From: a virus
Length of the DNA: 63,927 nt
Strand: one strand, 5' to 3'
Virus record (IMG/VR): IMGVR_UViG_3300048587_000084
Span: 1-63,927 of that record
This document shows positions 1,489 through 34,200 of this stretch, one piece after another (positions within the stretch are counted from its first letter, which is position 1; each line of letters begins with the position of its first letter). Under the pieces are notes generated by a model. That model worked only from the letters and a program-made list of their open reading frames with translations. It did no database searches and was not told the origin of the DNA. A program made the position numbers and the translations under genes.

Positions 1489-2592
1489 TTACGCCGGGTC
1501 GGCGGCGGCGGTGTCGATCGAGATAACACCGTAGTCGTAGCCGTTGAATCGGGACTTCTTGCAGCCCACGATTACATCGGCGCCGATGATCAGGTCGTTA
1601 CCACGGTTCTCCATTTCCTCGTGCCACTGGAAGCGGAGGCCTTCGCCCGGCGAACCGAACGCAAGCACGCCAGCCTGGCGGCCAAGGAACAGCGCGCGCG
1701 CTGCAGCCACGTTGTTGCCCGCACCGTAGTCGTTGAACCGAACCACGCTCTCGTGCGAGTGCAGGATGGTCCCGCGCAGCATGCCCAGCGCTTCCCCGAA
1801 GATCGGGTTGCTGCGGCCCTCGGCACCGGCGGCGGCCTTCTGGATGTCCAGCCAGTCGCCCGTGGTGCTCGTGGTGCGCATGTCATGCTCTTGGTACGTG
1901 TGCATGAGCATGCAGTAACGGCCGGTGCCCTCGATGTTGCTCGGCTGCAGCTTGGTCAGCGCGTTCTGCGCCGAGCCGCCGCCCATCGTGGTCGCCTTGG
2001 TCACGGCGCGCTCGACCACCGCACGGCTCATCTTGCCGCCGCTGGTGAGCGTGGCCTTGGAGCTGCCATCGCCGTACATGATGTGCGAGCTGTCCGGCGC
2101 CTGGATCGCGTTGTTGGCGCGTCCCGTCCAGCCCAGCGGCCAGACGAAATCCGGGTTGATACCGCGGGCACCCGACAGGTAGATGAAAATCATCTCGTCG
2201 AACAGGCGCGCCCAGTATTCCCGGAGGCGAGCGCGGGCGATCGTGCGCAGGTTGTGGAGCGTGCGCTTGCGGCTCATCTTGCCGCCGGCATTCACACCCT
2301 TATACATCTGGTCGATGCGCACGTAGTCCTGGAAGAACTTGAGGTTCGACTCAGAGCCTTCGCGGGCGGCATCGCCCTCCACCGGCACGCCGTTGACGGC
2401 GACGCTGATGTCGTACTTGACCTCGTCACCGTCGTCGGATTCGAGATCGGTCTTCAGCTGGATCGGCAGCGTGTCACCGGTGCCCATCATCTTGCGGGTG
2501 AAATAGCTGGACTTGGAGATGTCGACGAACAGCGACGCGCTCCAGAGTTTCACTGCTTGGGGGCTGTTCAGCCCAATTACGGTCTGTGCCAT
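1489..2592 (-). CDS. Major capsid protein (N4-gp56/DUF4043-like)
   Basis: A 367-residue protein forming the icosahedral shell. The sequence starts MAQTVIGLNSPQAVKLWSA and carries features I associate with the N4 gp56-like major capsid family: an early SxxxFTRKMMGTG stretch, a DxGDEVKYDI segment near residue 55, GYKGVNAGG-like sequence (MYKGVNAGGKMSRKRT) near residue 97 and a C-terminal FNGYDYGVISIDTAA strand. Size and position, downstream of portal and scaffold and upstream of the adaptor, agree. The ATG at 2592 has an AGGA upstream. The fold is expected to be HK97-like, which is inference from the family. Confidence 0.85.
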   Translation of the reverse strand: MAQTVIGLNSPQAVKLWSASLFVDISKSSYFTRKMMGTGDTLPIQLKTDLESDDGDEVKYDISVAVNGVPVEGDAAREGSESNLKFFQDYVRIDQMYKGVNAGGKMSRKRTLHNLRTIARARLREYWARLFDEMIFIYLSGARGINPDFVWPLGWTGRANNAIQAPDSSHIMYGDGSSKATLTSGGKMSRAVVERAVTKATTMGGGSAQNALTKLQPSNIEGTGRYCMLMHTYQEHDMRTTSTTGDWLDIQKAAAGAEGRSNPIFGEALGMLRGTILHSHESVVRFNDYGAGNNVAAARALFLGRQAGVLAFGSPGEGLRFQWHEEMENRGNDLIIGADVIVGCKKSRFNGYDYGVISIDTAAADPA

Positions 2593-3689: not shown

Positions 3690-5791
3690 ATGGCACCCGG
3701 TTGTTGGTTGGCATTCGCGATGACCTGGTCGGCAGTTGGTGCAAACGGCAGCATCTGCGCGATCAGTTGCGCGGTGGTCAGGGCCTTGCCCTGTGTATCG
3801 ACTCGCTGCGACTCCGCATCTGCGAGTAGCTTCTTGGCCTGCGCTTCGGTGTACGTAACATTGGCGCCGCGCTCGCGCTGCACCATGGCCTGTTCCTCAG
3901 CTGCAGCCTGTTCCTTCTGCTGTCGCTTGGCCTGCTGCTCGGGATCGTTCTCGGATCCTGGGTCAGCGTGTCCGTTCAACTCACGGATGCGCTTGACGAT
4001 CACGTCCTTGCCCGGCAGGTCGGTCAGGTCAATGGCCAGATCCAGCAGCTGCAGGCCGATCTGCGGATCCAGCTGACCGATCGTCTCCATCAGCTGCTCG
4101 GCCATCGCGAGGCGCATCGTTTCGCGGTAGTCCTGCGCGTCGACCACGAAATCAGCCTGCTGCGCCGTGATGTCGTTGTGGTAGGTCCACTCACCGGTGG
4201 TTTCATCGAACACCGGCGTATTGATCTCCATCCAGTCGATGGAATGCTGGTTCTCTGTGATCCGGAACTGCATCGGCCCGGTGCAATACTGCTCGGCCAG
4301 GCTTAGTACCTTCTGCCCGCTGATTTTGAACGCGAGCCTGTAGTTGTCGAACAGCGCCGCGGTGGTCAGCGCGCCTTCGCTCTGCTTGGCCTGAATCGCC
4401 CGGCCGCTCTGGGCATTGGTGTCGCGCCCCAGCTGCTCGCGGTTGACGCCGGTGCCGTCGTGAATGTGCGCGGATGCCACTTCGGCGAGGTTCACCTGCC
4501 CTGCGGCCAGTGCCTCACCTCGAAGGATCTCGAAGCGCTTGCTGCCGGCGCCGTTCTTGGCGCTGTTGAGCTTGATGATGCCGTCCGGTCGCGCGGCGTT
4601 GTCCGCCACGTCGTCCCAGTCGTTGACCGCATCCTCGTCGCCAATGACCTGGTTGGCCGCCAGGTGAAACTGCGCCTTGCTCATGCGCTTGTTGAAATCG
4701 CTCTGCGCATCGCGCACGCCACGAATCACGCCGTAGGGCATGCCGTCGCGGTCGCGCCTGAACCCCCAGTATGGCGTGAGGCTGAACCGGTCATGCCGCA
4801 TCGGCATCTTGTCTGACCGCAGCACCCCGTTCGGAACCCACAGCGCGTAGTGGATTTGCTGCCGGATCGTGTCTGACAGGCTGATCGCCCCATCCTGGTA
4901 CAGCTTCACCAGATCCGGGTTGCTCGGATCAAACCACTGGCCGTGATTCCCACCGTCTCGCGCCGTGATGCGCTTGGCCGCCACCGGCTTGCGGAACTGC
5001 GTCTCGATGATCGTGACGCGCATACGCAGGCCGTAGGGCGCGATCCCTGCCCAGTTGCGCGATACCCTTGTGCGGCCGAACTCGTCCGCCCGCAGCCACA
5101 GCTGCGGCACGTCCTCGTCCGACATTTCATCGTCGATGTCGAAGCCGAGCCGGCCCTCGATGTTCGCTGCCGACTGAATCAGCGCCTCGTGCTCCGGGAA
5201 CATCGCCACCGCATATTCCACGTCAAGCGTGCGGCGCCGATGGATGTAGCGCGCGTCCTTGAGCTGCAGGTGCCGTGAGTGCGGGTCCAGCCACACATTG
5301 CGCCATGACTCGTGCTCGCACAGCACCGGCGGGTCGTTCGGGTCTGTCGTGACCGTCTCATCGGTCCAGCCGATGCCGACCTTGACCTGATCCTCGAATG
5401 CGCGTGAGCGCTCCCAGCTGAACCCGTTGACGTCGTCCAGATACTTCATGAAGGCCTGTTTGGCCTTCGCCGGCTCCGTGTCCTGCGGTCCACGCGGGCG
5501 GATGTTCCAATCCAGCCGGCTGCGTCGCTCCGTTCCCAGCAACCAATCGGTGGCGATCTTGACCTTGTTGAACACCAGCGGCGCCTGGAACCGCGCGTGC
5601 ATTTCCGCGATTTCCTCGGCGGTGTACTGCTCGTGGTCGTAGAACGCGGCGTCGGTCGCCTGCTCTGCGCGGTTCTGGCTGTGCCGATCGCGTGCGTCAT
5701 ACCACCAGTCGCTCAGCTGGCGCAGCAGCGCACTGTCATCCTTGCGCGGCGCTTGCGCGGCCGCGGTCGGCGTCGCCGGCTCCATGATCAT
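3686..5791 (-). CDS. Portal protein (P22-like)
   Basis: A 701-residue protein. It carries the pattern of P22-type portals: an N-terminal helical region, a FNKVKIATDWLLGTERRSR segment near residue 75, a wing and stem region including SFDKNRMSK-like sequence (QSDFNKRMSKAQFHL) near residue 360, and a Gln-rich C-terminal barrel region with KKLLADAESQR. Twelve copies are expected to form the DNA channel at one capsid vertex and to bind the terminase. It lies directly between terminase-linked genes and the scaffold, overlapping both neighbours by a few bases. Length is typical of podovirus portals of this type. Confidence 0.88.
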   Translation of the reverse strand: MIMEPATPTAAAQAPRKDDSALLRQLSDWWYDARDRHSQNRAEQATDAAFYDHEQYTAEEIAEMHARFQAPLVFNKVKIATDWLLGTERRSRLDWNIRPRGPQDTEPAKAKQAFMKYLDDVNGFSWERSRAFEDQVKVGIGWTDETVTTDPNDPPVLCEHESWRNVWLDPHSRHLQLKDARYIHRRRTLDVEYAVAMFPEHEALIQSAANIEGRLGFDIDDEMSDEDVPQLWLRADEFGRTRVSRNWAGIAPYGLRMRVTIIETQFRKPVAAKRITARDGGNHGQWFDPSNPDLVKLYQDGAISLSDTIRQQIHYALWVPNGVLRSDKMPMRHDRFSLTPYWGFRRDRDGMPYGVIRGVRDAQSDFNKRMSKAQFHLAANQVIGDEDAVNDWDDVADNAARPDGIIKLNSAKNGAGSKRFEILRGEALAAGQVNLAEVASAHIHDGTGVNREQLGRDTNAQSGRAIQAKQSEGALTTAALFDNYRLAFKISGQKVLSLAEQYCTGPMQFRITENQHSIDWMEINTPVFDETTGEWTYHNDITAQQADFVVDAQDYRETMRLAMAEQLMETIGQLDPQIGLQLLDLAIDLTDLPGKDVIVKRIRELNGHADPGSENDPEQQAKRQQKEQAAAEEQAMVQRERGANVTYTEAQAKKLLADAESQRVDTQGKALTTAQLIAQMLPFAPTADQVIANANQQPGAI

Positions 5792-6231: not shown

Positions 6232-6587
6232 GCCAGCTTTTCTGCACGCAGCTTTGAGCGCAACTCATAGCCAAGCAGCGGCCAGATCTTGTCTACGGCA
6301 TTTTGCCGCGCGATCTTGCGGCCGATAGCGGCATCGAAGTTGTCTGGGCTTGCGCAGGCTGACTCTCCCGTGGCAGTGAACCCGTTCCGCATGACCAGAA
6401 CGCAAAACGTCAATACAGCGAGAGCCCCTGGCACTCGGTGAGGATGGATTGCCGTTGCCTTTGCGCCATCCTCGGCCGTGAAATAATGCTCGCTTGTGAT
6501 TTCCGCCTCGATGGCTGTCGGTGTCACGCGTGGCGCGGTCAGGCCTTTGGCGAGGATTTCAGATTCGATGTCCATCACGTTGCTCAT
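6228..6587 (-). CDS. Gp49-like phage protein
   Basis: A 119-residue protein with the hallmark segments of the phage Gp49/gp66 family: TAPRVTPTAIEAEI near the N-terminus, then LTFCVLVMRNGFTATGESA and the ending IWPLLGYELRSKL. The family is common near terminase or regulatory genes of phages and has no established function. The start is set at the ATG at 6587, which overlaps the TGA of the large terminase (ATGA), in preference to upstream codons that lie inside the terminase gene in another frame. Confidence 0.75.
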   Translation of the reverse strand: MSNVMDIESEILAKGLTAPRVTPTAIEAEITSEHYFTAEDGAKATAIHPHRVPGALAVLTFCVLVMRNGFTATGESACASPDNFDAAIGRKIARQNAVDKIWPLLGYELRSKLRAEKLA

Positions 6588-8161
6588 GCGGTCTTCCAGT
6601 TCCCAGGGTTGCCCTTCTTGCGGCGCTCCTGGCGTTGTTTTTCGGGCTCGAACCCCTGCGCGGCCTGCCTGAAGGCATCCACCCAGTTGCTCGACCAGTC
6701 GTGTAGCGGGTGATCGCGGAAGGTGCCGGTGACGTCCGACCACTCTTTGCGGTACGTGGCCAGCGCCGGCAGCAGCCCAACGCCTTCGCCCTCCAGCAGC
6801 TCTCCGCACCGCACCTTGTCGAACCGGCACAGCGGCAGCATCTGGCGGGTCATGTCGATGCCTTCGCCGATCGTCGATATGCGCGGCACCACCTTGACCT
6901 TGAACCCCAGGCCTTCAAGCACTTCACGCCGGCTCTTGCGGTCCTCGCGTGAGTAGTCCGTGACCGCCGCGTCATGCGGCAGGTGCTGGAACCCGTACAC
7001 GTAACCGCGCTCCATCGCGCGCTGCTGCAGCCACTGGGCGTAGTGGTGGATCGCCTCGCCGTTGTTGGCGTAGCTGTCGATCCAGTCGTAGTAGTCGCCG
7101 TTGTGCTGCATCAGCAGCAGCACGTTGGTGTCGTTGCTGCCGATGTCCCAGAACACGTGCACCTTGGCGCCCGGCCGCACTGGCAGCGGCTGCAGAATCC
7201 GCCCCTCAGACTCTGCTCGCGTCATCAGCTTGCCGAAGTACGTGCCGTCCTTGGCCGCCTTGAAGGCTTCTTCCGGTGTGGATGGGTACTCCTTCCACAT
7301 CTGGTCGCCCTGCTCGATCCGCTTCTTGGCGTACCAAGCGCGCTGCGATGGCGTCAGCGTGTAGCCCGTTTCATCCTCGACCGCGGCGAAGTATTCCGCC
7401 AGCTCGTCGCTGATCTCGACCCCATCAGGGTCCAGTTGGTACGTCGGATCCTCGAACCACGGCAGGAAATGGACCTTGTAGTCCATCTGCCCCAGCTTCG
7501 CGGTGCCCGATGCGATGCGCCGCTGCAGCGTGAGGGCCGCTTGGCACTTCGCGTAGAAGTCTCCGAAACTGCCCTCGGCCGTCGACTCGATCGTGACGTA
7601 GTTGCCTGGCGCGACCGTGTTCAGCGCACCCGACTGGATTTCCTTTGCTCGGAGCGGATCTCGCGAACAGATGCGGCCGTATTCCGATATGTGCAGCCAC
7701 TGCAGCGTGCCGGAGCGATGCGACAGTGACACCGTGATCTTCGAGCCGTTCGACAGCTCGAGCACGCCATTCATGTCGCGGCGTTTCACCGGCCTTGCGG
7801 CGCGAATCGATGCGGGCAGCTCGTCGTAGGCAAACAGAATCTTGTCGATGAACGCTTCGCGCGCATCGTCCTTGGTGTGAAACACCAGGCCGCACGAGGT
7901 GTTCGAGCGAAACAGCGCGATGTCCAGCGCGCGGATGCACGCCCAGGTCGTGATTCCGTGCTGGCGCGCTTTCAGGATGATGTTGAGGTTGTGCAGGCCA
8001 GCGTCTACACGCTTCTGCACCGCGTTCAGCCGGAACCGTCTCAGGTTCCCGTGCTTGTCCTTGATCTTGTAGAGATTGTTGAGGCGCCACTCGCGCGACG
8101 CCAGCTTTTCACGTAGCGATGCCTCAACCGCCGAATCCGGTGTCGGCGCCGTCGAGTTCAT
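6584..8161 (-). CDS. terL: Terminase large subunit
   Basis: A 525-residue ATPase-nuclease that drives genome packaging. The ATPase N-terminal half has a variant Walker A, KARQHGITT (residues 64-72), and a Walker B with catalytic Glu, WLHISE (155-160), followed by the coupling-motif region YVTIESTAEG. The C-terminal half has an RNase H-like nuclease with its first Asp in HVFWDIGSND and a later Asp in DAAVTDYSRED. Length and order are normal. It overlaps the small subunit by 38 bases upstream and the Gp49-like gene by ATGA downstream. Confidence 0.9.
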   Translation of the reverse strand: MNSTAPTPDSAVEASLREKLASREWRLNNLYKIKDKHGNLRRFRLNAVQKRVDAGLHNLNIILKARQHGITTWACIRALDIALFRSNTSCGLVFHTKDDAREAFIDKILFAYDELPASIRAARPVKRRDMNGVLELSNGSKITVSLSHRSGTLQWLHISEYGRICSRDPLRAKEIQSGALNTVAPGNYVTIESTAEGSFGDFYAKCQAALTLQRRIASGTAKLGQMDYKVHFLPWFEDPTYQLDPDGVEISDELAEYFAAVEDETGYTLTPSQRAWYAKKRIEQGDQMWKEYPSTPEEAFKAAKDGTYFGKLMTRAESEGRILQPLPVRPGAKVHVFWDIGSNDTNVLLLMQHNGDYYDWIDSYANNGEAIHHYAQWLQQRAMERGYVYGFQHLPHDAAVTDYSREDRKSRREVLEGLGFKVKVVPRISTIGEGIDMTRQMLPLCRFDKVRCGELLEGEGVGLLPALATYRKEWSDVTGTFRDHPLHDWSSNWVDAFRQAAQGFEPEKQRQERRKKGNPGNWKTA

Positions 8162-8852
8162 CCATCATTCTCCGCAAGTCGTCGCCTCCCGCCTGCTCTG
8201 GCGTCTTGGCATCTTTGATGCCGTGTGCGATTCGCTCGATCGCATCCAGGTCGCGTAGCGATGCCACCAGTTGCCGCGCTGTCTTGGCCAACTGCTCGAC
8301 CTGCAGCGCAGCAAGCGTGGCCAGCACTGCTCGCCTGATCTCCGCGTCATCGAGCGCCATTGCCGCACCACCCAGCGCCGTGAGCGTCGCCTCGATGTCG
8401 GGCGCTCTGTCCATCATCTGCGTAAGCCGGTCCAGCACGCGCTGGACCGTTACACGCGCTGCGCGCTGGTCTGCGCGCTGGCGCCCGATCACCGTGGCCG
8501 TGGCCTCGATGAACGCCGTCTGCACGTCATCCGCGCTTGTCAGCGGCCTGCCGGTGGCGTGCTCTGCCACGTGGCGCTGCACCGTAGCGGCGATGCGCCC
8601 AGCGACGTCGTCCGCGTCCGCGCGCTGCGCGCCGTTGCGTTTCGCCAGGCGGTACACGTAGGTGTCGCTGGTTTCGAACCGCCGCGCGATCTCGCGCACG
8701 CTCATCGCGCTGGCTGTGAACGCGTCCAGGATGGCGCGATCACGCGGTGTCACAGCTGTTGCACCTGCCGTTGCACCGCAACGCTTCCGTTGCACGTGCG
8801 TTGCCCCACCGCTACCGCCCGTTTTCCTTGTCCTACCAGCCTTTCCGGCCAT
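8124..8852 (-). CDS. Terminase small subunit (putative)
   Basis: A 242-residue protein with a basic N-terminus and a helix-turn-helix at about residues 40-68 (FTASAMSVREIARRFETSDTY), the DNA-recognition element expected for a small terminase. The rest is helical and includes a probable oligomerisation region. It lies immediately upstream of and overlaps the large subunit. The ATG at 8852 is preferred to a GTG two codons upstream because an AGG element is better spaced. The assignment depends on context and the HTH, since small terminases diverge strongly. Confidence 0.75.
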   Translation of the reverse strand: MAGKAGRTRKTGGSGGATHVQRKRCGATAGATAVTPRDRAILDAFTASAMSVREIARRFETSDTYVYRLAKRNGAQRADADDVAGRIAATVQRHVAEHATGRPLTSADDVQTAFIEATATVIGRQRADQRAARVTVQRVLDRLTQMMDRAPDIEATLTALGGAAMALDDAEIRRAVLATLAALQVEQLAKTARQLVASLRDLDAIERIAHGIKDAKTPEQAGGDDLRRMMDELDGADTGFGG

Positions 8853-8916
8853 TTCCACACCTAGCTCTTAGTTCCCTCTCGCGCGTGCGCGTGGAGGTGC
8901 AACAGGTTGTGCAACA

Positions 8917-9369: not shown

Positions 9370-9659
9370 TTCGTCGCCCTCTCGTTGTGCCTGTTCACGC
9401 ACGCCCACAAGGCGCGCAAGCGCTCTGCGAGCTGCGCGGCGTCGCCTGCCATCGCAACTTCTTCTGTCGTTGCATCGGAGGCGTTCGCGGCTCGCGCGGG
9501 CGCAATGTCCGGCGCGGCCGGCACCTGACAGTCGATGCGCTCAATGACCACCACGCGCTTGGTTGGCGGCGGCGGCGGCGGCGGCGGCTTGCTGGTAGGC
9601 ATCAGCGCGCAGGCGCTGCACGTCATCAGGCAGCACACAAGTAGCCAAATTGCTCGCAC
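9366..9659 (-). CDS. Rz1: Rz1-like outer-membrane spanin lipoprotein
   Basis: A 97-residue protein starting with GTG at 9659. A short signal sequence (MRAIWLLVCCLM) ends in a lipobox-like TCSAC, followed by a proline run (PTSKPPPPPPPPTK), a typical o-spanin layout. The gene begins inside the 3' end of the Rz gene in another frame (9541-9659), the classical embedded or overlapping Rz/Rz1 arrangement. Together with Rz it would fuse inner and outer membranes at the last step of lysis of a Gram-negative host. The lipobox deviates at position -3, so the precise acylated Cys is uncertain. Confidence 0.8.
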   Translation of the reverse strand: MRAIWLLVCCLMTCSACALMPTSKPPPPPPPPTKRVVVIERIDCQVPAAPDIAPARAANASDATTEEVAMAGDAAQLAERLRALWACVNRHNERATK

Positions 9660-9930
9660 TCAACGCTCCCTTGAGCTGCGCGCCGATGCTGCCGGTGCGC
9701 TGCTCGATCGTCTTGATAGATGCCTGCACGGCCACAAGATCAGCGACGGCCTCTGAGGCGCGCTCCTTTCCCGAGTCCACCTGGTCGCGCAGTTCTGCGT
9801 TGGCTTCATCGCGCTCTTGGATCGCCTGCGCCTGCATTTCAGCCAGCATTTGCGTGCGGCCATAGTCGCGGCCGACAAACGCTGCGACCGCGATGGCCAG
9901 CACAGTGATGATCCAGCGCAGCCACTCCAT
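9541..9930 (-). CDS. Rz: Rz-like inner-membrane spanin
   Basis: A 129-residue protein with an N-terminal membrane anchor (WLRWIITVLAIAVAAFVG) and a long periplasmic coiled coil (ERDEANAELRDQVDSGKERA), the normal i-spanin design. The 3' end overlaps Rz1 in another frame. The ATG at 9930 overlaps the preceding TGA (TGATG); a GTG one codon upstream is possible. It follows endolysin and holin candidates, giving a complete lysis cassette. Confidence 0.82.
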   Translation of the reverse strand: MEWLRWIITVLAIAVAAFVGRDYGRTQMLAEMQAQAIQERDEANAELRDQVDSGKERASEAVADLVAVQASIKTIEQRTGSIGAQLKGALSASNLATCVLPDDVQRLRADAYQQAAAAAAAANQARGGH

Positions 9931-10079
9931 CACGCGTTGAAGCCTTCAAACTCTTTGATGCGCTGGCGCCAGAAGTGTAGGTAGAACCTGCGGAGTGCCG
10001 TCTCTGCGGGCCCGATGCGAAGCGCGTGCTTGATCGCCTCGGCAAGATTTCTTGGCGCTGTCGGACTACGTAGGTTCAC
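9930..10079 (-). CDS. Small hypothetical protein in lysis cassette
   Basis: A 49-residue frame that starts with GTG overlapping the previous stop (GTGA) and ends TGATG with Rz. It reads MNLRSPTAPRNLAEAIKHAL at the start and has a C-terminal WRQRIKEFEGFNA. Tight coupling on both sides supports a real gene. It has no membrane segment and no recognisable family. Confidence 0.6.
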   Translation of the reverse strand: MNLRSPTAPRNLAEAIKHALRIGPAETALRRFYLHFWRQRIKEFEGFNA

Positions 10080-10477: not shown

Positions 10478-10984
10478 CTACCGATCAGACGGCGCAACGG
10501 CCGGCTTGGTCGATCCAAAGTAAGGTGCTTGCGGGTAGTGCGTGTGCGACGGCGCGCCCGCCGGCCACAGCACATGCACCACGCGGCTCAGCGGAAACTC
10601 GGCGACACTCACGGCGTTTCCTTGATTCCCGCCCAGCAGCCGCACAGATCCTTTGCTCACGCCTTCCAGAAACCCGACGTGCCCAGATGCCGGCCCGCGG
10701 TCGCTCGACAGCACCACGATGGCACCGAGCGTGTTGTCAGCGATCAGGCATCGGATGCCCGGCTCGAACCCCCGCGCGCGAGGCGTTCGTGGGCTGCGAT
10801 AGCCGGCGCTCTCGATCGCAGCACAGGCAAAAGCCGCGCACCATGGGGTTTCGTCGTCGTTGACGTCGAGCGGAACTTTACCGATGTCCCAATACTGCAC
10901 AACCCGCGGATTGTGCTTCGCCCCCACAATCTCACGCGTTCCAAATTCGCCGCGCGCCCAGGCAAGCCATGCTGGGATTAGCAT
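10478..10984 (-). CDS. Endolysin, CHAP/NlpC-like TIGR02594-type
   Basis: A 168-residue peptidoglycan hydrolase candidate. It carries the pattern of the TIGR02594 family: W-x-x-A-RGEFGTREI at the N-terminus, ETPWCAAFACAAIE with the probable nucleophile Cys49, and a GHVGFL segment with the probable catalytic His102. It has no N-terminal signal, so release through a holin is expected. The ATG at 10984 overlaps the TAA of a small membrane gene (TAATG) and is preferred to longer upstream extensions, which run through other genes. It is followed by spanin genes. Confidence 0.8.
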   Translation of the reverse strand: MLIPAWLAWARGEFGTREIVGAKHNPRVVQYWDIGKVPLDVNDDETPWCAAFACAAIESAGYRSPRTPRARGFEPGIRCLIADNTLGAIVVLSSDRGPASGHVGFLEGVSKGSVRLLGGNQGNAVSVAEFPLSRVVHVLWPAGAPSHTHYPQAPYFGSTKPAVAPSDR

Positions 10985-11088
10985 TACGACACCATCATTG
11001 CGATGAGACTGCGCACAGCCAACACGAACAGGCCTACAGCAACACCGAGCGTGAACGCGGATACTTCTCTGTCGCTGTATCGCTTCAC
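10984..11088 (-). CDS. Small single-span membrane protein (holin/antiholin candidate)
   Basis: A 34-residue frame missed by a usual length cutoff. It starts with GTG overlapping the stop of the holin candidate (GTGA) and ends overlapping the endolysin start (TAATG). After a charged N-terminus (MKRYSDREVSAF) comes one hydrophobic segment (TLGVAVGLFVLAVRSLIAMM). Perfect coupling on both sides supports it. A pinholin or antiholin role is suggested by size and position only. Confidence 0.6.
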   Translation of the reverse strand: MKRYSDREVSAFTLGVAVGLFVLAVRSLIAMMVS

Positions 11089-11567
11089 GGCGATTGGCCT
11101 TTGTCATTGTGGTCAGTGCGGCGTCGGCGTGGCGCTGGCGGTAGAACGCTGCCGAACCATCCACTAAACCATTGCGACCATGCCGCCTGTCCAAGCCTGA
11201 GCGTCACCCAGGCGACGAACGCAACGACGGTCGACAGCGCCAGCATCGCCTCCGCGGTATTCGGGAGGCTCGCCTCAATCACGCGGACGCCAGCAGCTGT
11301 TTCGATCGTTACCGCATGCGTCAAGCGCTGAAACAGGAACGGTGTGATCGCGATGCTTGTTAGGCTTGACACTGCCCACTTGAGCCCGATCGACCTTCGC
11401 GTTTCTGACGGCGCCTCCGGGACGATAGCCACGGATAAAAAACCTCCGATGATTCCGCCGATGGCAGCAACCCCAAGTGCGCCGTAGTCCGGCGGCAGGA
11501 TGGCTGTTGCAACCCCGGCTGAGGCCAGTGCGTAGGCCGCCAGATCCGTCACGTGCTGATGCGACAT
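11085..11567 (-). CDS. Membrane protein, holin candidate
   Basis: A 160-residue protein with several hydrophobic segments: about residues 8-25 (AYALASAGVATAILPP), 28-50 (GALGVAAIGGIIGGFLSVAI), 63-80 and 105-125 (AMLALSTVVAFVAWVTLRLG), ending in a basic tail (PAPRRRRTDHNDKG). Multi-span proteins with charged C-termini directly before the endolysin are typical holins. No specific holin family is recognised. Confidence 0.6.
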   Translation of the reverse strand: MSHQHVTDLAAYALASAGVATAILPPDYGALGVAAIGGIIGGFLSVAIVPEAPSETRRSIGLKWAVSSLTSIAITPFLFQRLTHAVTIETAAGVRVIEASLPNTAEAMLALSTVVAFVAWVTLRLGQAAWSQWFSGWFGSVLPPAPRRRRTDHNDKGQSP

Positions 11568-11572
11568 TGTCG

Positions 11573-12046
11573 TCAGCCGCCGCAGTACAAACCAAATTCA
11601 CGGCACATGCGTGGGTAGTGCGGTCCAGATGGTTGCGGCAGGGGCGTCACTGCAGCGCAACTGTCCTCGCCAACGTATGAGCCTGCCTGGAGCCACGTCC
11701 CACTTTCTCCGTTCAGGCTCAAGGTCAACCCACCAGCGCCATGAATTAGCGTCACAGAACCGACTGGCGTGGTCATCGGCCAGCGATACAGCTGCAACGT
11801 CAGCGGCGACTGATACGCTTGGTTGGGTTGCGCAACCCCAGTGACGTAGGACTGACCGCCCTGGACGCACATCACCGACACGCGGTGGTTGCAGTACGCG
11901 CCGGCGTTGATCTTGTCGATCATCACGTTGCACTGGCTGTGCACGCCAGTCTGCAGCCAGCCTGAATCGGTTGGCACCAGCGGCGCAGCAGCAACAGTCT
12001 CGCACAGCATGACGCACGCGGCGATTGCCGCGATCACGTGTCGCAT
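11573..12046 (-). CDS. Secreted cysteine-containing protein of unknown function
   Basis: A 157-residue protein with a clear signal peptide (MRHVIAAIAACVMLCETVAA, probable cleavage before APLVP). The mature part has paired cysteines (SQCNVMIDK, AYCNHRVSVMC, MCREFGLYCGG), suggesting disulfides in the periplasm. It is the first protein gene after the phage tRNA; its GGAG ribosome site lies only a few bases after the tRNA CCA end. It may act in lysis or lysogenic conversion, but there is no direct evidence. Confidence 0.65.
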   Translation of the reverse strand: MRHVIAAIAACVMLCETVAAAPLVPTDSGWLQTGVHSQCNVMIDKINAGAYCNHRVSVMCVQGGQSYVTGVAQPNQAYQSPLTLQLYRWPMTTPVGSVTLIHGAGGLTLSLNGESGTWLQAGSYVGEDSCAAVTPLPQPSGPHYPRMCREFGLYCGG

Positions 12047-12059
12047 GACGTACTCCAGT

Positions 12060-12134
12060 TGGTAGCAGGGGCCGGACTCGAACCGGCGACTTCCGGGGTA
12101 TGAGCCCAGCGATCTGCCGCTGATCTACCCTGCG
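12060..12134 (-). tRNA. Initiator-type tRNA-Met (CAU), encoded CCA
   Basis: A 75-base cloverleaf. D-stem GATC/GATC with an A11:U24 pair; anticodon stem CTGGG/CCCGG with loop CTCATAC (anticodon CAU) and three consecutive G:C pairs below the loop; T-arm GCCGG-TTCGAGT-CCGGC; acceptor GCAGGG/CCCTGC; discriminator A and encoded CCA. The first base C faces U72 and does not pair. Unpaired 1:72, A11:U24 and the three G:C pairs are the known hallmarks of bacterial initiator tRNA; the usual mismatch is C1:A72. It lies at the head of the late lysis and structural operon. Confidence 0.88.
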
Positions 12135-12142
12135 ATAGAAAT

Positions 12143-12160
12143 GCCGCGCGCCAGCGCGGC
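12143..12160 (-). terminator. Hairpin upstream of the tRNA (possible late-leader terminator)
   Basis: A perfect 7-bp GC stem (GCCGCGC, four-base loop, GCGCGGC) followed on the minus strand by ATTTCTATC and then the tRNA. It lies between the Q-like gene and the late genes, where a Q-dependent leader terminator would be expected. The T-tract is weak, so it could also be an RNA-processing structure. The rest of the 12161-12264 gap holds no convincing promoter by eye. Confidence 0.45.
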
Positions 12161-12264
12161 GAATGCACGAATGGCGTAACCAGCTAGGCTCTGGGTTTCA
12201 TCGTACCCTGACAGAATGGCATGGAATAGTGGTCCGTTTCACGAGCCATTTTTGCGACCGCCTC

Positions 12265-13038
12265 TCACGGCTCAGCCAGCTGATCTCGCAGGTGCCGAAC
12301 AGCATCCCTGCGCGCCGTGTATGCCTCTTGCCACATCCAGTGATACGCCGGCTTCACGGCCCTCGCGTACACCCCGCGGCTCACGCCAAGCAGATCCGCG
12401 CGCTCGCGCTCGCTGTAGCGCGTAAGCCCTGTACCAAAGCACCGCGGGCATGGTACCTCCCGTAGCCGGTCATCGCGCACGTAAGGCATTACGCCGGTGC
12501 CTGAGCAATCAGGGCAGCGCTCATCCTCGCGAAACTCGAACAGCACCCCATTGGCGATGCGTGCCATCAGCGTGCCGGTCAGGTCTTTCCACACCCTGTG
12601 CTGCGCCTCGATGACCTCGTCCGTGGCGCGACGCATGATGATGCGGGCTTTGTCGTTGCATATCTTCCCTGCCTGGCGCGCCATGTCCCGCTCCTCGCGC
12701 ACAATCTCCGCCAAGTGCAGCGCGTCCGAGCGCGCGCGGTGTTCGCGCCTCAGACGGTCGCGCGTCTGCTGCTGCATCTGCTGCGCCGACAGCCACTGCG
12801 GGATCTCGTCATCGCTGTCGCGTTGGTCGCCCATCCAGCGCTGCCACATTTCTTCGGTGGCATCACTGTGTAGCGCCAGTTGCGTGCCCCATCGCATCCA
12901 CTCCTTGTCGTGAGGGCGGCCGTCGTAGTCGACCGGTGCGGCAGCGCGTGAAGTGAAGACGATTGCTGCAATCAGATGCTGGCCGCAGCGCTTGTCGACC
13001 AGCGACAGCAGCCCACCGATTCCACCGTGCTGCATCAT
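12265..13038 (-). CDS. Q-like late antitermination protein (putative)
   Basis: A 257-residue protein. Its C-terminal third has a zinc-finger with two knuckles, CPDCSGTG and CPRCFGTG, followed by YSERERADLLGVSRGVY and a helical end, the layout I associate with the phage Q antiterminator family (Antiterm). Q proteins load onto RNA polymerase at the late promoter and allow read-through into lysis and structural genes. It is the last early gene before the tRNA and lysis block, exactly where Q belongs. The ATG at 13038 overlaps the preceding stop (ATGA). The N-terminal half is not recognised. Confidence 0.65.
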   Translation of the reverse strand: MMQHGGIGGLLSLVDKRCGQHLIAAIVFTSRAAAPVDYDGRPHDKEWMRWGTQLALHSDATEEMWQRWMGDQRDSDDEIPQWLSAQQMQQQTRDRLRREHRARSDALHLAEIVREERDMARQAGKICNDKARIIMRRATDEVIEAQHRVWKDLTGTLMARIANGVLFEFREDERCPDCSGTGVMPYVRDDRLREVPCPRCFGTGLTRYSERERADLLGVSRGVYARAVKPAYHWMWQEAYTARRDAVRHLRDQLAEP

Positions 13039-13511
13039 CGTAAACCCCCAGGCCTGCGCAGTTCGAGAGCAGTTTCCACATCGGCGATGATCGATCGGTC
13101 TTTCAGGTCGGCTGACGTGCACGGGAACACAATCCAGCCCATCAGCTGCGCTCTGCGACTCTTGCGACAGTCGCGCTTGAAGCCATCTGGCCGCACGTGG
13201 GCGCCGCGGCTATGCACCCCGCCCTGAACCTCGATGGCCACGCGCGCGGACAGCCACGCGAAGTCCAGTTCCCACCTACGTGGGGTATCAAATTGATAGT
13301 TGCGCTCGAACCCACCTAACCCGGCCTGCATCAGATCCACTACCAGCGCGCCCTCAAGATCCGGCGCGGCGCTGGACCGCTCACGCTTTGCCGACAGCGC
13401 AGCGCCAGCATTTGCCGGCTTCGGATCTGTAGGCAACTCGACGCGGGCAGGATCTTTGCCCGTGGTCTTCTTCCACGCGTCGTACTGCTCAGGCGTCCAA
13501 CGGATTGTCAC
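13035..13511 (-). CDS. PD-(D/E)XK-type endonuclease domain protein
   Basis: A 158-residue protein. The C-terminal half resembles DUF559/Vsr-like nucleases: FERNYQFDTPRRWELDFAW, then VAIEVQGGVHS supplying an E-x-Q catalytic pair, and the conserved YGW-like QLMGWIVFPC strand. A start GTG overlaps the upstream stop. It sits among replication-linked genes; processing of replication or recombination intermediates is plausible. Whether it is active cannot be told from sequence. Confidence 0.65.
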   Translation of the reverse strand: MTIRWTPEQYDAWKKTTGKDPARVELPTDPKPANAGAALSAKRERSSAAPDLEGALVVDLMQAGLGGFERNYQFDTPRRWELDFAWLSARVAIEVQGGVHSRGAHVRPDGFKRDCRKSRRAQLMGWIVFPCTSADLKDRSIIADVETALELRRPGGLR

Positions 13512-22042: not shown

Positions 22043-22767
22043 TCCTCACCACCCTAACCGCCCTCTGGCTCATCGCATCCGGCCCGCAGCACGTGTCGGT
22101 CGATGCGATTGCCCAAACCACGTGCATCACGGTCGCGGTCTACACCGAGGCCGAAGGCGAGCCGTACCTTGGCAAGCTCGCCGTCGCAGCCGTCGTGCGA
22201 GAGCGCGCCAGGCGCTCCAACACCCCGCCGTGCGCGGTCGTCACCGCGCGCCACCAGTTTTCGGGACTGGGTAGGCGCGTGGGGCGCATTCACCCCGGAG
22301 CGCTGCTCGATTCGCTGGGTGCGGCACGCGCCAGCGCTCTGTCTACCGCGCCGGTGCCTGAGTGCGCCGGCGCAACTCACTTCGACAACAACTCGCGCGC
22401 GTCGTGGACACGCAAGTTTCCCGTTGTGTGCGCGATCGCCAACCACACCTTCTATGGAGAAACCACACGAACGAAACACCAAGCCCGCTTGCACTTGCGC
22501 TGGTGGCAGCCATGCTCGGCATGGCTGCCGAAGAATGCGAGTGCGCCAAGTGCGCGGCCAAACGCCAAGCTGATCTCGACGATAAAGCTGCGGATGTGCG
22601 CGCCGAACTGGCCGCTGGCGCAATGGCGTCCGTCAGCATCAGCGCTCCGCGCGACTTTGGATGGGCGCTGGCCATGCTTCGCGAAGGCTACGCGCTGCGC
22701 CGCGCCGGCTGGAACGGCAAAGGCCTCGCGCTGCACCTGCAGATACCCGACGCCAACTCCAAGATGA
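22039..22767 (+). CDS. SleB-like cell-wall hydrolase with read-through tail
   Basis: The frame is 242 codons, but the recognisable hydrolase (Hydrolase_2/SleB-like) occupies only residues 1-143: a hydrophobic N-terminus, AVYTEAEGEPYLGKLAVAAV with the catalytic-type Glu, QFSG, CAGATHFDNN and a final AIANHTFYGETT. Members usually end at about this point. Beyond it the frame runs through the next gene in a non-coding-looking, Arg/Ala/Pro-rich register. At 22468-22470 a CGA stands where TGA would complete an ATGA junction (see findings). It may degrade peptidoglycan during entry or lysis; an early position is odd for the latter. Confidence 0.7.
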   Translation: MILTTLTALWLIASGPQHVSVDAIAQTTCITVAVYTEAEGEPYLGKLAVAAVVRERARRSNTPPCAVVTARHQFSGLGRRVGRIHPGALLDSLGAARASALSTAPVPECAGATHFDNNSRASWTRKFPVVCAIANHTFYGETTRTKHQARLHLRWWQPCSAWLPKNASAPSARPNAKLISTIKLRMCAPNWPLAQWRPSASALRATLDGRWPCFAKATRCAAPAGTAKASRCTCRYPTPTPR

Positions 22768-22886
22768 CGCTGCCCTACATCTACATCGAGTACCCGAAGG
22801 ATGCCGCCAACACGCCGGGCGCGCGGTGCCCGTGGCTGGCGTCGCAGACCGACATGCTGGCTCAGGACTGGGAGCTGGCCCAGTAA
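22512..22886 (+). CDS. Tad2-like (DUF2829) anti-Thoeris candidate
   Basis: The C-terminal 75 residues carry the DUF2829/Tad2 signature: FGWALAMLREGYALRRAGWN-G-K-G near the start, an aliphatic strand (LALHLQIPD), and the ending WLASQTDMLAQDWELAQ. Tad2 binds the cyclic ADP-ribose-type signal of Thoeris defence and prevents its action. Upstream are about 50 helical residues with CECAKC. The ATG at 22512 gives 124 residues; an ACG at 22467 with an ideal GGAGA ribosome site would give 139. The frame overlaps the tail of the hydrolase frame. Domain assignment is strong; activity is not tested. Confidence 0.8.
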   Translation: MLGMAAEECECAKCAAKRQADLDDKAADVRAELAAGAMASVSISAPRDFGWALAMLREGYALRRAGWNGKGLALHLQIPDANSKMTLPYIYIEYPKDAANTPGARCPWLASQTDMLAQDWELAQ

Positions 22887-23138: not shown

Positions 23139-23851
23139 AAGAACGTCCGATCCTGTTCTCCGCCGCGATGGTCCGCGCCCTGCTCGCCGGCACGAAGACG
23201 CAGACGCGGCGGGTTGTGAAGCCGCAGCCGGCCAAGTCGTCCGGCACCCATCGTGGCTACCCGCTGGAACTCATGGCCAACGATTGGGCATGGCCGCATC
23301 CGCGCACCAGCGGCGCAACGACGATCAGCAACCGCCCGAACGGTCCACTGGGTTGGGAGATCCATTGCCCCTACGGCCAGCCCGGAGACCGGCTGTGGGT
23401 GCGGGAACGATTTACGCCGTTGCCGATGCAGGCGCCAACCGAAAACCCGTCGAGGTGGCAGATCCTTTACGCGGCTGGTGGCGCAGAAGAACGCGAGGCG
23501 CCGGCAGGCTACAACCCGATGCTCTACAACTATGAGCGTTGGTCGCCATCCATCCATATGCCCCACTGGGCCAGCCGCCTGACGCTCGAAATCACCGGCG
23601 TGCGAGTGGAGCGGTTGCAGGACATCAGCGAGGAGGATGCGCAGGCTGAGGGCATAGAGCGAGTGGGCGGCGAGTTCAGTTGCACGCCGTGGCGCAACTA
23701 CCGCATCGGATGCCCTGACGAGATGCGCAGCCACTGCTCGGCACGGTCGCGGTCTTACATGACTCTGTGGGAATCGATCAACGGCCCCGGATCGTGGGAT
23801 GCGAATCCGTGGGTGTGGGTTATCGAGTTCAAGCGAGTCGAGCAAGCGTGA
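23135..23851 (+). CDS. ASCH/PUA-like phage protein
   Basis: A 238-residue protein: RPILFSAAMVRALLAGTKTQ-TRRVVKPQ at the N-terminus, GQPGDRLWVRERFTP, LTLEITGVRVERLQDISEED and a C-terminal NPWVWVIEFKRV. These segments are typical of a phage ASCH-like family often labelled morphogenetic without evidence; the ASCH/PUA fold suggests RNA or modified-nucleotide binding. It overlaps its neighbours by GTGA-type junctions and sits next to the integrase. Confidence 0.72.
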   Translation: MKERPILFSAAMVRALLAGTKTQTRRVVKPQPAKSSGTHRGYPLELMANDWAWPHPRTSGATTISNRPNGPLGWEIHCPYGQPGDRLWVRERFTPLPMQAPTENPSRWQILYAAGGAEEREAPAGYNPMLYNYERWSPSIHMPHWASRLTLEITGVRVERLQDISEEDAQAEGIERVGGEFSCTPWRNYRIGCPDEMRSHCSARSRSYMTLWESINGPGSWDANPWVWVIEFKRVEQA

Positions 23852-24996
23852 CCCGCCCCCGCACCCCAGGCCGCCGCGACCTACCGCGCTGGTTCCGCGC
23901 CCGCAAGCGCGGCGGGGGCTATTACCTGGAACACCCGATCACCCGCGAATGTGCCACGCTCTCGGCCGATCGCGCCGAGGCGCTTGAGCTGTATTGGGCG
24001 CTGGTGCCGGAGATCGAAGCCCAGGTGCGCGCGGCGCGCGAAGGTCGCAAGGCCGGCAAGCTGGCCACCGTGCTGGAGGGCAAGCTCAAGGCCACCGGCG
24101 AAACCCTGCGCGCGTTCCTCGCGCGCTGGCGCACCGACGTGCTGCCCACGATGAACAAGCGCGGCAGCACCGGCGCGCTGTCGCCCAAGACGGCCGGCGA
24201 CTACGCCCGCATGCTGCGCCGCCAGATTGAACCCCTCGAAGCCACCCTGATCGAGCTGACCCGCATCGACGCCCAGTCCATGCGCGCCCTGCTCTCGCCC
24301 TGGCTGTCGATGCCCCACCAGTACAACTACATGCGCGCCGTCCTCACGCGCGCACTGCAACACGCCGTCGACGAAGGCGTGCTGTCCGTCAACCCCATGC
24401 GCTCGATCGACGCCCGCGCCAAGACCAAGCGTCGCGCCTACATCAGCGACGCTGATTACATCGCCATCACCGGAAAGATCACCGAACCCTACGCCGTGCG
24501 CGCGTGCGACCTGCTGTACCTGCTCGGCATGCGCCCGGCCGACTGTCTGGGCCTGCGCGCCGACGCACTGGTCAAGGTCGACGGCCGCTGGTGCGTCAAC
24601 TTCGCCGCCGGCAAGACCGGTGTCGAACAAGAACTGATCGGCAACCAGGCGCTGCACGATCAGCTCGAATGGTGGCGAGCATGGCGCGCCGAACACGCGC
24701 CACTGTCCGCGTACCTGCTGGTCCACCCACGCACCGCACACCGCAAGATCTGCTCACGTCAGATCAAGGTGGAATGGCTGTCCCGCACCTGGACCACCGC
24801 CACCCGCGAAGCCGGCCACCCCGAATACACCCTGCGCGACATCCGCCCCAAGTCCCTCACCGACGAGGCGCTTGCCGGCAACAAAGGCAACAAGGGCGGC
24901 CACCTCACCCAACAAATGCGCGACCACTACCAGCGCGTGCGGCTGCCGGAGCGGTCGGACGTGACCATCAACCTACCCAAGAGGAAATCCCAGTGA
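23848..24996 (+). CDS. int: Tyrosine recombinase integrase
   Basis: A 382-residue site-specific recombinase. The N-terminal arm-binding part is basic (GRRDLPRWFRARKRGGGYY); the core-binding part spans about residues 90-190. The catalytic domain shows Arg229 (LLGMRPADCLGLR), a Lys in AAGKTGVEQE, Arg333 in LRDIRPKSL, His352 (GGHLTQQ) and the nucleophile Tyr361 (RDHYQRV). It catalyses integration at the attP found 1.6 kb downstream. The GTG at 23848 overlaps the upstream stop (GTGA); longer upstream reading runs through another gene. Confidence 0.92.
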   Translation: MTRPRTPGRRDLPRWFRARKRGGGYYLEHPITRECATLSADRAEALELYWALVPEIEAQVRAAREGRKAGKLATVLEGKLKATGETLRAFLARWRTDVLPTMNKRGSTGALSPKTAGDYARMLRRQIEPLEATLIELTRIDAQSMRALLSPWLSMPHQYNYMRAVLTRALQHAVDEGVLSVNPMRSIDARAKTKRRAYISDADYIAITGKITEPYAVRACDLLYLLGMRPADCLGLRADALVKVDGRWCVNFAAGKTGVEQELIGNQALHDQLEWWRAWRAEHAPLSAYLLVHPRTAHRKICSRQIKVEWLSRTWTTATREAGHPEYTLRDIRPKSLTDEALAGNKGNKGGHLTQQMRDHYQRVRLPERSDVTINLPKRKSQ

Positions 24997-30650: not shown

Positions 30651-31142
30651 TTAGTTGAGGGCGAGCCTCATCTGCGGATGCAGTTGCGCCAGCGCCTGCA
30701 GCTGCTGCGGCTTGATGTCCTGCCATCGCCGCATGTCGCGCGCGGACTCTGACACGTGGCGCTTGTCCGACAGGTGCTGCTGATAGGCCTTGTTGAAGGC
30801 GTCGAACGCCTGCATGGCTTGGGCGCGGATGAACTCGGCCATGCAGTCGAAGGCCCTGATGAACGCTTCTTTGATGCGTGCGGCCTCTCGCCCTGTGAAG
30901 CCCATCACGAGAAACATGAAGCCGTTTTTCGTCATGCGGACTTCGCGCCTGCTTTCGCCTTTTGCATCCAGGTATTCAACGGGCTCAAAATTGAGCCGGT
31001 TGAAATCCTCGCTGCACTCGATGTTCTCGTAGGCGCGAAGCACGTTCTTGTGCTGCTTCTTGAAATGCTTTGCCACGGTGCGCGAATCGGTGAACACGCC
31101 AGCATCGCTGGCGACAACAAAGTCCTGCGGAACGATATTCAT
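30651..31142 (-). CDS. rha: Rha-family phage regulatory protein
   Basis: A 163-residue protein with the Rha domain: DSRTVAKHFKKQHKNVLRAY near residue 20, LDAKGESRREVRMTKNGFMF and LVMGFTGREAARIKEAFIRAF. Rha proteins are phage regulators, known from phi80 and P22-like phages, that interfere with infection of some hosts. The ATG at 31142 with GGAG six bases upstream is preferred to a longer form. It begins right after the terminator of the giant gene, so it needs its own promoter; none is obvious by eye. Confidence 0.8.
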   Translation of the reverse strand: MNIVPQDFVVASDAGVFTDSRTVAKHFKKQHKNVLRAYENIECSEDFNRLNFEPVEYLDAKGESRREVRMTKNGFMFLVMGFTGREAARIKEAFIRAFDCMAEFIRAQAMQAFDAFNKAYQQHLSDKRHVSESARDMRRWQDIKPQQLQALAQLHPQMRLALN

Positions 31143-31242
31143 AGTGAACTCCAATCTCCGGGCATAGGAGCGCGGCCGGCCGGGCTAGGAGACATCGCCC
31201 GGCACGTCGGCCGATCGTGCCTAGGCCGCGCGTAGAAACGAG

Positions 31243-31297: not shown

Positions 31298-34200
31298 CTA
31301 CTGGGCCATACCGAGCTGACTTTCCAGCCTTGCCTTGATCCGCGGATCAACTACCACACCGTTCTCCGCCTGCGCGCTGAACCGTGCACGCTGCTGGAAG
31401 CTCTTGCGAATGCTGTCGCTGGTGATGGCCAGCTCTGGGTACTTGCGGCTGAACGCCATCATCTTGACGCGCACGTCTTCCTGCGCGTCGGTATCGCCCA
31501 GGCGCCAGGCCATGGCAAAGGCGTCCATCAGGCGGGTGCGGCGGGCCTTGATGTAGTCGGCGTAGCCCTTCACGTCGCCTCGGATGTCGTAGGCGTTGGC
31601 CACTGCGGCCGGCGCCATGCCCATAAGCTGGGCAATGGTCGGGATCACGCCCAGGTCATCCACCACCGGATCGCCGCGCATGTTGTTCACGCCCTCATCC
31701 ATGTAGCGCACGGCCTTCATCGCGTCCTTGATGGCCTTGGGCAGCATGGTTTCGACGCCGCGCCACACCTGACCTTCCTCCATGAGCTGCATGCCGCGCA
31801 GCGCACTGACGAACATGCCGCCCGCCACAGGGCCCGCTGCCTGCTCCAGCCAGTAGTGAGCCAGCGCCTGCCCTTCCATCTCGCGATCTGGCGAGCGGAA
31901 CCACAGTTCGCCCAAGCCAACGCGTGAGGCGATGCCCATGCCGGTGGCGGCCTGCACCGGCCCGCGCATGACGTACTCGGCGCCCTTCTCGCCCAGCATC
32001 TCGCGCCAGAATGCGCGCAGCTCGGTTTCAGCGTCCCACGGCTCGTCATCGTCGCCGAAAGCTGCTGCCAGCGCGTTCATGATGCCCATGACCATGCCCA
32101 TCATCGGCAAGCCCATGGTGCCGGAGAACAGCGCCGTCATCCCCAGCGTGCCGGTCAGCGCGCGCATGTTTTCCTTGCGGGTTGCGGGATCAGCGTCCTT
32201 GAGCGACTTCCACGCCATGCGGCCCAGCAGCCAGGTCATGCCCATGCTGTACTGCTTGAACTGCAGCAGCACCTTGGCCACGGCGCCGCGCATGTAGCGG
32301 CTGCGGTTGGACGCGCTGTAGTCGAAGTGGGTCTGGTTGACCGCCTTGTCGCCCAGCTCGATCGCCATGTCGTGGCTCTTGCCGGAGGCGCGCGCCATCC
32401 GGTAGGTGGCCAGCGACGTGGACTCACGGTTGACCACCTCGGCGCGGTGGAATAGGAACGAGGCCCAGCTCAGCGCCTTGTGCAGCATCGGGTTGTAGGT
32501 GTGCGTATCGGTTTCGCTCAAGCCTGCCAGGTTGTGCACCTGCGACTTGTCGAACGTGCCGCGGCGCTTGAACTCCGCGTAGGCGCGCTGCTCATCGTCG
32601 GTGAGCGCGCCCGGTCCCTCGATCTTGTCGGTATTGCCCAGGGTACGTGCCGACTGCTTGAACCCGCGCCACAGCTCGCGCGCGGCGACGTCGAAGCCAT
32701 AGCGCGCGCCGAGCACGGGGAACGACACCATGGCCGTCTGCAGCAGGTTGACCAGCGCGGCAGCGGGTGACACGGCCAGATACCAGAGGAAGCCTAGCGT
32801 GGTGAGCTTCTGCGCGGCGCCGGAGTCCTGCGGGTTCATCACCCACTCGTGCCGGTCGCGCAGCTCGCCCACCAGCTGCCCCGCCTTGTTGGCGTCCGGG
32901 CTGTCCACCTCGGCCATGCTGTCGGCCAGCGCCTGCGCCTTCAGTACCTGCGCATCCAGCTTGTGCGTGTATTTCAGGCGGGCAATCTGGTAGCTGCTGT
33001 GAAACACGTGGCTGGCCAGCGCGCGCACCACGTCCTCGCTGAATCCGGGCGTGCCCTTGCGATGGATGAAGTTCTTGCGCATGGACATTTCCGGCAGCGT
33101 CGTCAGGTACAGCTGATAGACGTCGTTGCGGATCTTGTCTGGCGCGTGGCTCTCCTGCAGCACTTTGTCCACCTCGGCGATGAACGATGCGCTGGCGCCT
33201 TCGAGCTGCCGCGTCATCTTCGACTTCACGCCGCTGCTGATTCGGGTGTAGCCGGCCGCGCTCAGGCGCTTTTTCACCATCCGCTGTTCTTCGGTGGACT
33301 CCTGCATGTGGAACTCGCGCGTGCCATCTGGCGCGGTCGCGGCCACAAAGTATTCGCCCCAGCGCGACAGAGGCACGTAGAACGGTACCCGGTTGCTTTC
33401 AAAGTTCAGCTTGAGCTGCGCGATCATCCGCGCCTTCTGGCGGTCGTCGGTGATGGCCGCTTTCAGGCTTTCCATCAGCGCGTCCTGATACTTGTCGCTC
33501 TGCGAGGCGTAGGCGTCGCGCAGCTCCACCCACAGCTTTTTGCCCTCGGGCGACAGCTTAGACCAGATCGGCTTCATGGCTGCGTGCGAGTCAGCGCGCT
33601 TTTTCTCCTGCGCCAGCATCTTCTTCGCCTGCTTTTTGCGCGCGATGAAGTGCTGCGCCGAGCCCGGCGACATTTTGGCCAGGTTGTCCATGAGCTTGGT
33701 GAACGCCTTGACGTTCGCCGGGGTCACGGGCTGGTTGCTCTGCTCGGTGGCGTCCAGCATCAGCAGCGGCTGGTGATCGGCCGCCGGGTCGACGCCGGCC
33801 AAGGTCGCATCCATCAGCATGCGGTACATCTTCAGCGCCTCGGCCTTGTTGGCGCCCTGGTACTTCATGGCGCCTTCGACAATGTCGATGCTCACCTGCT
33901 GCAGCTCATTGCGCAGCGTCTGCATGTGCTGCACGGTGTCCGCGTATTCGGCCACCGGCGGCAGCAAGTCCTCACCAAGCTCGCCAAGGTGGCGTAGCTG
34001 CAGCGCGCCGAGTGCAGCCGGGCGCCAGTCGGCGGCCTTGTCCTTGAGGCGCTGCAGCAGCGTCGTGTCCTTCGGGCTGATCGCTTCCTGGAGGCGGTCG
34101 ACGATGGTGGGCTCGGAGCCTTTGGCGAATAGTGCCCCTTGACGTGGCGCAACATCAGCAACCGAGTCATGCTCGATCGCGATCTTAGTTGGCGACTCCA

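Follow-up and report, generated by a model that had tools for sequence, protein, structure and literature searches.

The locus described here raises the question of what a phage might gain from carrying an initiator-type tRNA gene. The reason for tRNA carriage by phages is a long-standing open question and, as codon compensation cannot explain an initiator tRNA, a gene of this kind isolates the remaining hypotheses. The one considered here is the sole tRNA that ARAGORN predicts in the whole window, by which we mean the complete IMG/VR record of 63,927 bases.

On the minus strand, ARAGORN places the gene at 12060-12134 and calls it tRNA-Met(cat); its match to Rfam family RF00005 scores 58.2 bits (cut-off 29, E 5.5e-10). 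Both programs confirm the coordinates given in an earlier, sequence-only reading of this DNA, which was silent on the strand. Read 5' to 3', the gene consists of CGCAGGG (acceptor), TA, GATC-AGCGGCA-GATC (D arm) and G, then CTGGG-CTCATAC-CCCGG (anticodon arm) and AAGTC (variable), and lastly GCCGG-TTCGAGT-CCGGC (T arm), CCCTGCT, A and CCA. In tRNA numbering, C1 lies at 12134, A11 at 12124, U24 at 12112, G29-31 at 12107-12105, C38 at 12098, C39-41 at 12097-12095, U72 at 12064, A73 at 12063 and the CCA at 12062-12060. Nearest-neighbour folding of the unmodified RNA prefers a non-cloverleaf structure by about 5 kcal/mol (-34.0 kcal/mol, against -28.9 kcal/mol for the cloverleaf). Of 200 comparable initiator-type tRNAs, viral and cellular, 54 likewise have no anticodon hairpin in their minimum free energy structure, so that this is weak evidence against a tRNA, and folding was dropped as uninformative on the cloverleaf. 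The gene does not seem to be the remnant of an attachment site, being complete and about 11.6 kb away from the integrase gene (23767-24996), next to which attP would usually lie, nor does it come from host contamination, since phage genes are found on both of its flanks. Bases 13-29 of the tRNA, running from the D arm into the anticodon stem, recur as a perfect 17-base match on the plus strand at 62040-62056, within a tail-fibre gene (61636-63153; BLAST E 0.0012); this match could be due either to chance or to function.

A purine at position 11 opposite a pyrimidine at position 24 is a further element of bacterial initiators, and an A11:U24 pair is present in the GATC/GATC D stem of the phage tRNA. 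So are the three G:C pairs 29-31:39-41 (CTGGG/CCCGG), which form the P-site element of initiators (PMC11497404), and the 1:72 position is unpaired (C1/U72). The elements used by the formylase are an unpaired 1-72, A73, G2-C71, C3-G70 and G4-C69, of which 4:69 is minor (PMC9976931); the phage tRNA has G2:C71, C3:G70 and A73, with A:U instead of G4:C69. Nearly all of the initiator identity elements that can be read from a sequence are present, 4:69 being the exception, and each of those named in the sequence-only reading (the CAU anticodon, three consecutive G:C pairs, A11:U24 and C1/U72) is seen in the minus-strand sequence. The E. coli metZWV tRNA-fMet and the phage tRNA have in common CAU, GGG/CCC, A11:U24, G2:C71, C3:G70, A73 and the unpaired 1:72, and differ in that the phage tRNA has C1:U72 and not C1:A72, C38 and not A38, A4:U69 and not G4:C69, and a D loop shorter by 2 bases.

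Identity to the E. coli initiator metZ amounts to 80% (60/75), against 60% (45/75) to the elongator metT and the same to ileX, the lysidine tRNA-Ile2. The phage tRNA shows neither the traits of an elongator tRNA-Met (paired 1:72, no GGG/CCC, a pyrimidine at 11) nor those of tRNA-Ile2 (paired 1:72, elongator-type stems like those of ileX), having an initiator stem and an unpaired 1:72. The CAU anticodon and the ARAGORN label, merely 'tRNA-Met', would agree with the role of an elongator Met or of a lysidine tRNA-Ile2, but C1/U72, A11:U24, GGG/CCC and the far poorer fit to metT and ileX make this exceedingly improbable. The comparison of identity elements and of E. coli genes excludes both of these classes, which the sequence-only reading had named as outcomes that would speak against it; judging from its sequence, the gene is very probably of the initiator type, as had been proposed.

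The window represents a 64-kb podovirus from the vicinity of the Bcep22 group. The major head protein shows 50-56% identity to its counterparts in Lessievirus, PBC5 and other Bcep22-group and related podoviruses of 60 kb, in agreement with the portal and terminase, and the genome has the ~60 kb size of these phages. A 5138-aa ORF with LPD37, LPD39 and helicase C-terminal domains (31298-46714, minus strand), taking up ~24% of the genome, occupies the place of the DarB-like giant protein found in Bcep22-group phages (PMC9144972). A Rha-type phage regulatory protein is encoded at 30651-31154 on the minus strand (PF09669, E 8.6e-28). As an integrase gene is present, the phage is probably temperate. 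No close DNA match to the window was found among phage records.

An initiator-type tRNA is not a conserved trait of this family, its Bcep22-group relatives having mostly tRNA-Ser, tRNA-Arg, tRNA-Gln or none, and in the nearest prophages found (one in Stenotrophomonas, one in a different Lysobacteraceae genome) the 10 kb upstream of the head gene contain no tRNA. POI1126 and one further record (G007) of the same wider group also carry initiator-like CAU tRNAs, at other places. Two viral contigs recovered by the tRNA pattern scan described below, L090 and L047, likewise have terminase or head genes of the Bcep22-like group, and for this reason more than one gain of an initiator-type tRNA within it is probable.

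On the minus strand, the tRNA stands in the order O-like replication gene, Q-like gene, GC hairpin, tRNA, orphan ORF with a signal peptide, holin-like gene, CHAP endolysin, terminase, portal and head (Table 1). This is the lambda-type gene order with the tRNA just behind the Q-like gene, from which late, Q-dependent expression follows as the natural inference. We consider it likely that the tRNA is co-expressed with the late genes, gene order being what suggests dependence on Q, and the sequence-only reading was on sound ground in putting it first in the late operon, with a Q-like gene upstream and lysis and packaging genes downstream. That reading put four bases between the CCA and the ribosome site of the next gene; the gap from CCA to GGAG is in fact 3 bases (ACT), and 6 bases separate the GGAG from the ATG.

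Table 1. Features around the tRNA gene and in the adjoining late region of the window
Feature	Position	Strand	Evidence
Antitermination protein Q-like gene, directly upstream of the tRNA	12265..13122	-	PHROG phrog_127, E 6.1e-8; phrog_6060, E 5.8e-4
GC hairpin with weak T tail, between Q-like gene and tRNA	12143..12160	-	Pattern scan
Initiator-type tRNA-Met(CAU) gene (very probable), CCA encoded	12060..12134	-	ARAGORN; Rfam RF00005; metZ identity
Anticodon CAU	12100..12102	-	ARAGORN: cat at position 33
Orphan ORF, 157 aa, signal-peptide-like start	11573..12046	-	No match in PHROG or Pfam
Small hydrophobic protein; only its position and composition are holin-like	11085..11567	-	No family match
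CHAP-type endolysin-like gene	10478..11194	-	PF05257, E 1.7e-5, just under cut-off; phrog_1259 tail lysozyme, E 5e-27
Rz-like spanin candidate	9541..9933	-	phrog_9841, E 0.009, weak
Terminase small subunit	8124..8858	-	phrog_1206, E 9.3e-15
Terminase large subunit	6584..8161	-	phrog_2, E 1.5e-22
Major head protein	1489..2592	-	phrog_334, E 3.7e-105

The Q-like protein contains a Zn-finger-like stretch, found by Pfam at sub-threshold level only. The GC hairpin is a candidate Q-responsive terminator or leader hairpin; the scan that found it returned one hairpin for 0.5 expected in shuffled sequences, which alone is not significant. A sigma-70 promoter scan of 11500-12500 gave no match, and searches of viral contigs returned neither homologues of the Q-like protein nor relatives of the orphan protein encoded downstream of the tRNA.

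The rarity of such genes among phages that the sequence-only reading implied is not borne out. A DNA pattern combining initiator stem-loop and T-arm matched at least 120 stretches in the viral collection, and initiator-type tRNAs are found in more than 100 viral contigs as well as in named isolates (D3, Haboob, Aeromonas phage 31 and QDWS359). The E. coli metZ query retrieved similar tRNAs from 282 phage records (E up to 1e-6), these being similarity matches and not singly assigned to a class; most are labelled tRNA-Met. As phage records mostly give initiator-type tRNAs this label, isotype surveys miss them. The matches listed include 119 CAU tRNAs with GGG/CCC at viral loci, with 1:72 pairs of C:A (25), T:A (23), A:C (11), T:T (11), C:T (9, including that of the window) and others. 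The C1:U72 of the window tRNA was therefore correctly noted as departing from the usual C1:A72, but is nothing special, occurring in 9 of these 119 and also in D3.

The position behind Q is similarly not unique to the window, as at one other viral locus (L038) the gene upstream of the initiator-type tRNA is Q-like (family phrog_79), and at another (L100) the upstream gene belongs to phrog_3373, the family of Haboob's, with a weak Q-like match. Solitary viral initiator-type tRNAs do not, as a general rule, stand behind Q: the genes next to them vary (portal, terminase, primase, holin, integrase) and are Q-like in few cases. Precedents nevertheless exist for a phage initiator-type tRNA, for C1:U72 and for a location close to the start of the late genes. 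Bordetella phage PHB09 harbours an unannotated CAU tRNA (3995-4069, plus strand) with GGG/CCC but an elongator-like C11:G24, directly after a phrog_9226 gene and before BrnT.

One feature went unnoticed in the sequence-only reading: the anticodon loop of the phage tRNA is CUCAUAC, with C at position 38, which is A in E. coli. A38/C39 is the single bond of tRNA-fMet that is cleaved by the VapC toxins of Shigella and Salmonella (PMC4105405), and C38 is the base 5' of this reported cut. The first viral pattern scan left positions 37 and 38 free, and 106 distinct viral initiator-type tRNAs are among the matches listed. A38 is missing in 17 of these 106 (12 CUCAUAU, 1 CUCAUAC, 2 CUCAUUC and 2 CUCAUGC); 13 of the 17 keep A37, and A37 alone is changed in a single case. 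A second viral scan, for non-A38 loops with A37, matched at least 119 stretches. In 299 Pseudomonadota genomes, the GGG/CCC pattern found non-A38 in none and A38 in 159; widened to A29:U41 stems, it found non-A38 in 2 and A38 in 64. One of these two is not called a CAU tRNA by ARAGORN. The other, the sole intact non-A38 copy in the 299 genomes, is borne by a Mu-like prophage (L373, G211:C6:3418000-3437900; loop TTCATAC) among baseplate, neck, protease and minor head genes, and the same genome also has a normal A38 copy. Fisher's test of 17/106 (viral, matches listed) against 0/159 (genomes) gives 7e-8, for sequences that are non-independent and of unmatched host phyla, the viral sample spanning many host phyla and the cellular control Pseudomonadota only. 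The excess of A38 changes in viral over chromosomal copies is a strong hint, not proof.

Phages with named hosts show both states. TTCATAC is the loop of PHB09 (Bordetella), of POI1126 (Ochrobactrum) and, with TCC after it, of PaMx74 (P. aeruginosa), and that of Aeromonas phage 31 is CTCATAT; A38 is kept in D3, Haboob, QDWS359, VBv52 and Donnerlittchen. Phage tRNAs other than tRNA-fMet have been proposed as nuclease-resistant replacements, and in the S. flexneri case phages were found generally to avoid encoding tRNA-fMet (PMC10264068). The present survey suggests that such avoidance is not general.

The explanation that we prefer for the locus as a whole, and to which we give an even chance, is a working late initiator tRNA that mainly replaces host tRNA-fMet depleted by VapC. 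The gene would encode a working tRNA of the tRNA-fMet type, transcribed together with the lysis, packaging and virion genes after the Q-like protein is made. Its product would be charged by the host MetRS, presumably formylated, and placed by IF2 in the ribosomal P site, so that late initiation could continue even if host tRNA-fMet ran short, chiefly through VapC-type nucleases, with C38 in place of A38 predicted to confer resistance to the VapC cut. It is the A38C change that suggests VapC-like cleavage as the relevant threat. Replacement of host tRNA cleaved by defences had already been suggested in the sequence-only reading and gains further support from A38C; as the selected function, a nuclease-resistant replacement can be put forward only tentatively, at somewhat less than an even chance, since resistance is predicted from the loop. 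Help for the many GTG starts of this genome, also suggested there, found no specific support: any CAU initiator tRNA reads AUG, GUG and UUG. A 174-aa protein encoded at 22362-22886 on the plus strand has a Tad2-like (Thoeris anti-defence 2) domain (PF11195, E 5.7e-19). This anti-Thoeris domain and the DarB-like giant are in keeping with an investment in counter-defence; PADLOC found no defence genes among the early ORFs.

Several observations weigh against the preferred explanation. Relaxed constraint on spare phage copies could alone account for the changes at position 38, many viral copies, including that of D3, keep A38, and the S. flexneri case argues for avoidance of tRNA-fMet (PMC10264068). 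The lack of a tRNA in the nearest prophages searched means that the family as a whole does not require it, and the unmodified fold favours a non-cloverleaf. A serious rival, possible even if we lean against it, is simple dosage, in which a functional initiator only raises late initiation capacity and C38 is neutral drift. It would account for the nearly intact set of initiator identity elements and for the place of the tRNA ahead of highly expressed late genes, and since A38 is retained in the majority of viral initiator-type tRNAs, their persistence can be explained without resistance. It accounts less well for position 38 being non-A in 17 of the 106 listed viral copies (13 of which retain A37), against A37 alone being changed in one, and for the retention of A38 by chromosomal copies in the 299-genome Pseudomonadota sample.

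Two further readings were considered. The tRNA could be a captured passenger of little or no benefit, retained by chance at a variable spot, in line with the other tRNAs or none in Bcep22-group relatives, the absence of a tRNA from this region of the nearest prophages and the lack of a close DNA match to any phage record; this is rather improbable, given that the tRNA is intact through CCA, that initiator-type tRNAs recur in unrelated phages and that initiator-like CAU tRNAs are also seen in G007 and POI1126, which belong to the same wider group. Alternatively, its 5' and 3' maturation could mainly serve to set the mRNA end before the ribosome site of the following ORF, as the 3 bases between CCA and GGAG and the GC hairpin just upstream might suggest. 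A spacer, however, would have no need of an almost full complement of initiator identity elements, the ORF that follows is an orphan, and initiator-type tRNAs recur elsewhere without this ORF, making such a processing or spacing element highly improbable.

A phage initiator-type tRNA is already known in kind, and it is the pattern at position 38 that constitutes a testable addition. It provides a cheap and direct test of the anticodon-nuclease hypothesis, involving one base, one enzyme family and one predicted outcome, and merits a proper census. We regard as unlikely, on present evidence, the broader proposition that spare phage initiator tRNAs are widely altered at position 38 and expressed late, so that fMet-cutting toxins (VapC) cannot halt protein synthesis. 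If true, these tRNAs would be an anti-abortive-infection device acting at the initiation step, as opposed to the avoidance of tRNA-fMet concluded for the enteric case (PMC10264068).

Among related podoviruses, the Bcep22-like Lessievirus phages BcepIL02, CSP3 and JC1 resemble the window phage in having a single tRNA, but of a different isotype, tRNA-Ser (PMC9144972). Stenotrophomonas phage vB_Sm_QDWS359 has an initiator-type tRNA, annotated there as tRNA-fMet; unlike that of the window it lies between terminase and ribonucleotide reductase genes, has A38 and is followed by tRNA-Ile. Pseudomonas phages D3 and Haboob share with the window an initiator-type tRNA with C1:U72 and the acceptor strand CGCAGGG, located behind a Q-position gene after NinG and ahead of the late region (in D3 behind orf84, the Q-position gene after NinG and orf83, with the same arrangement in Haboob). 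Theirs differs from the window tRNA (79% identity) in its loop, CCCATAA, where A38 is kept and position 33 is C, and in having three more tRNAs behind it. Stx phages such as 933W resemble the window phage in that their tRNA genes lie behind Q and ahead of lysis, and differ from it in that these are of elongator isotypes serving rare codons.
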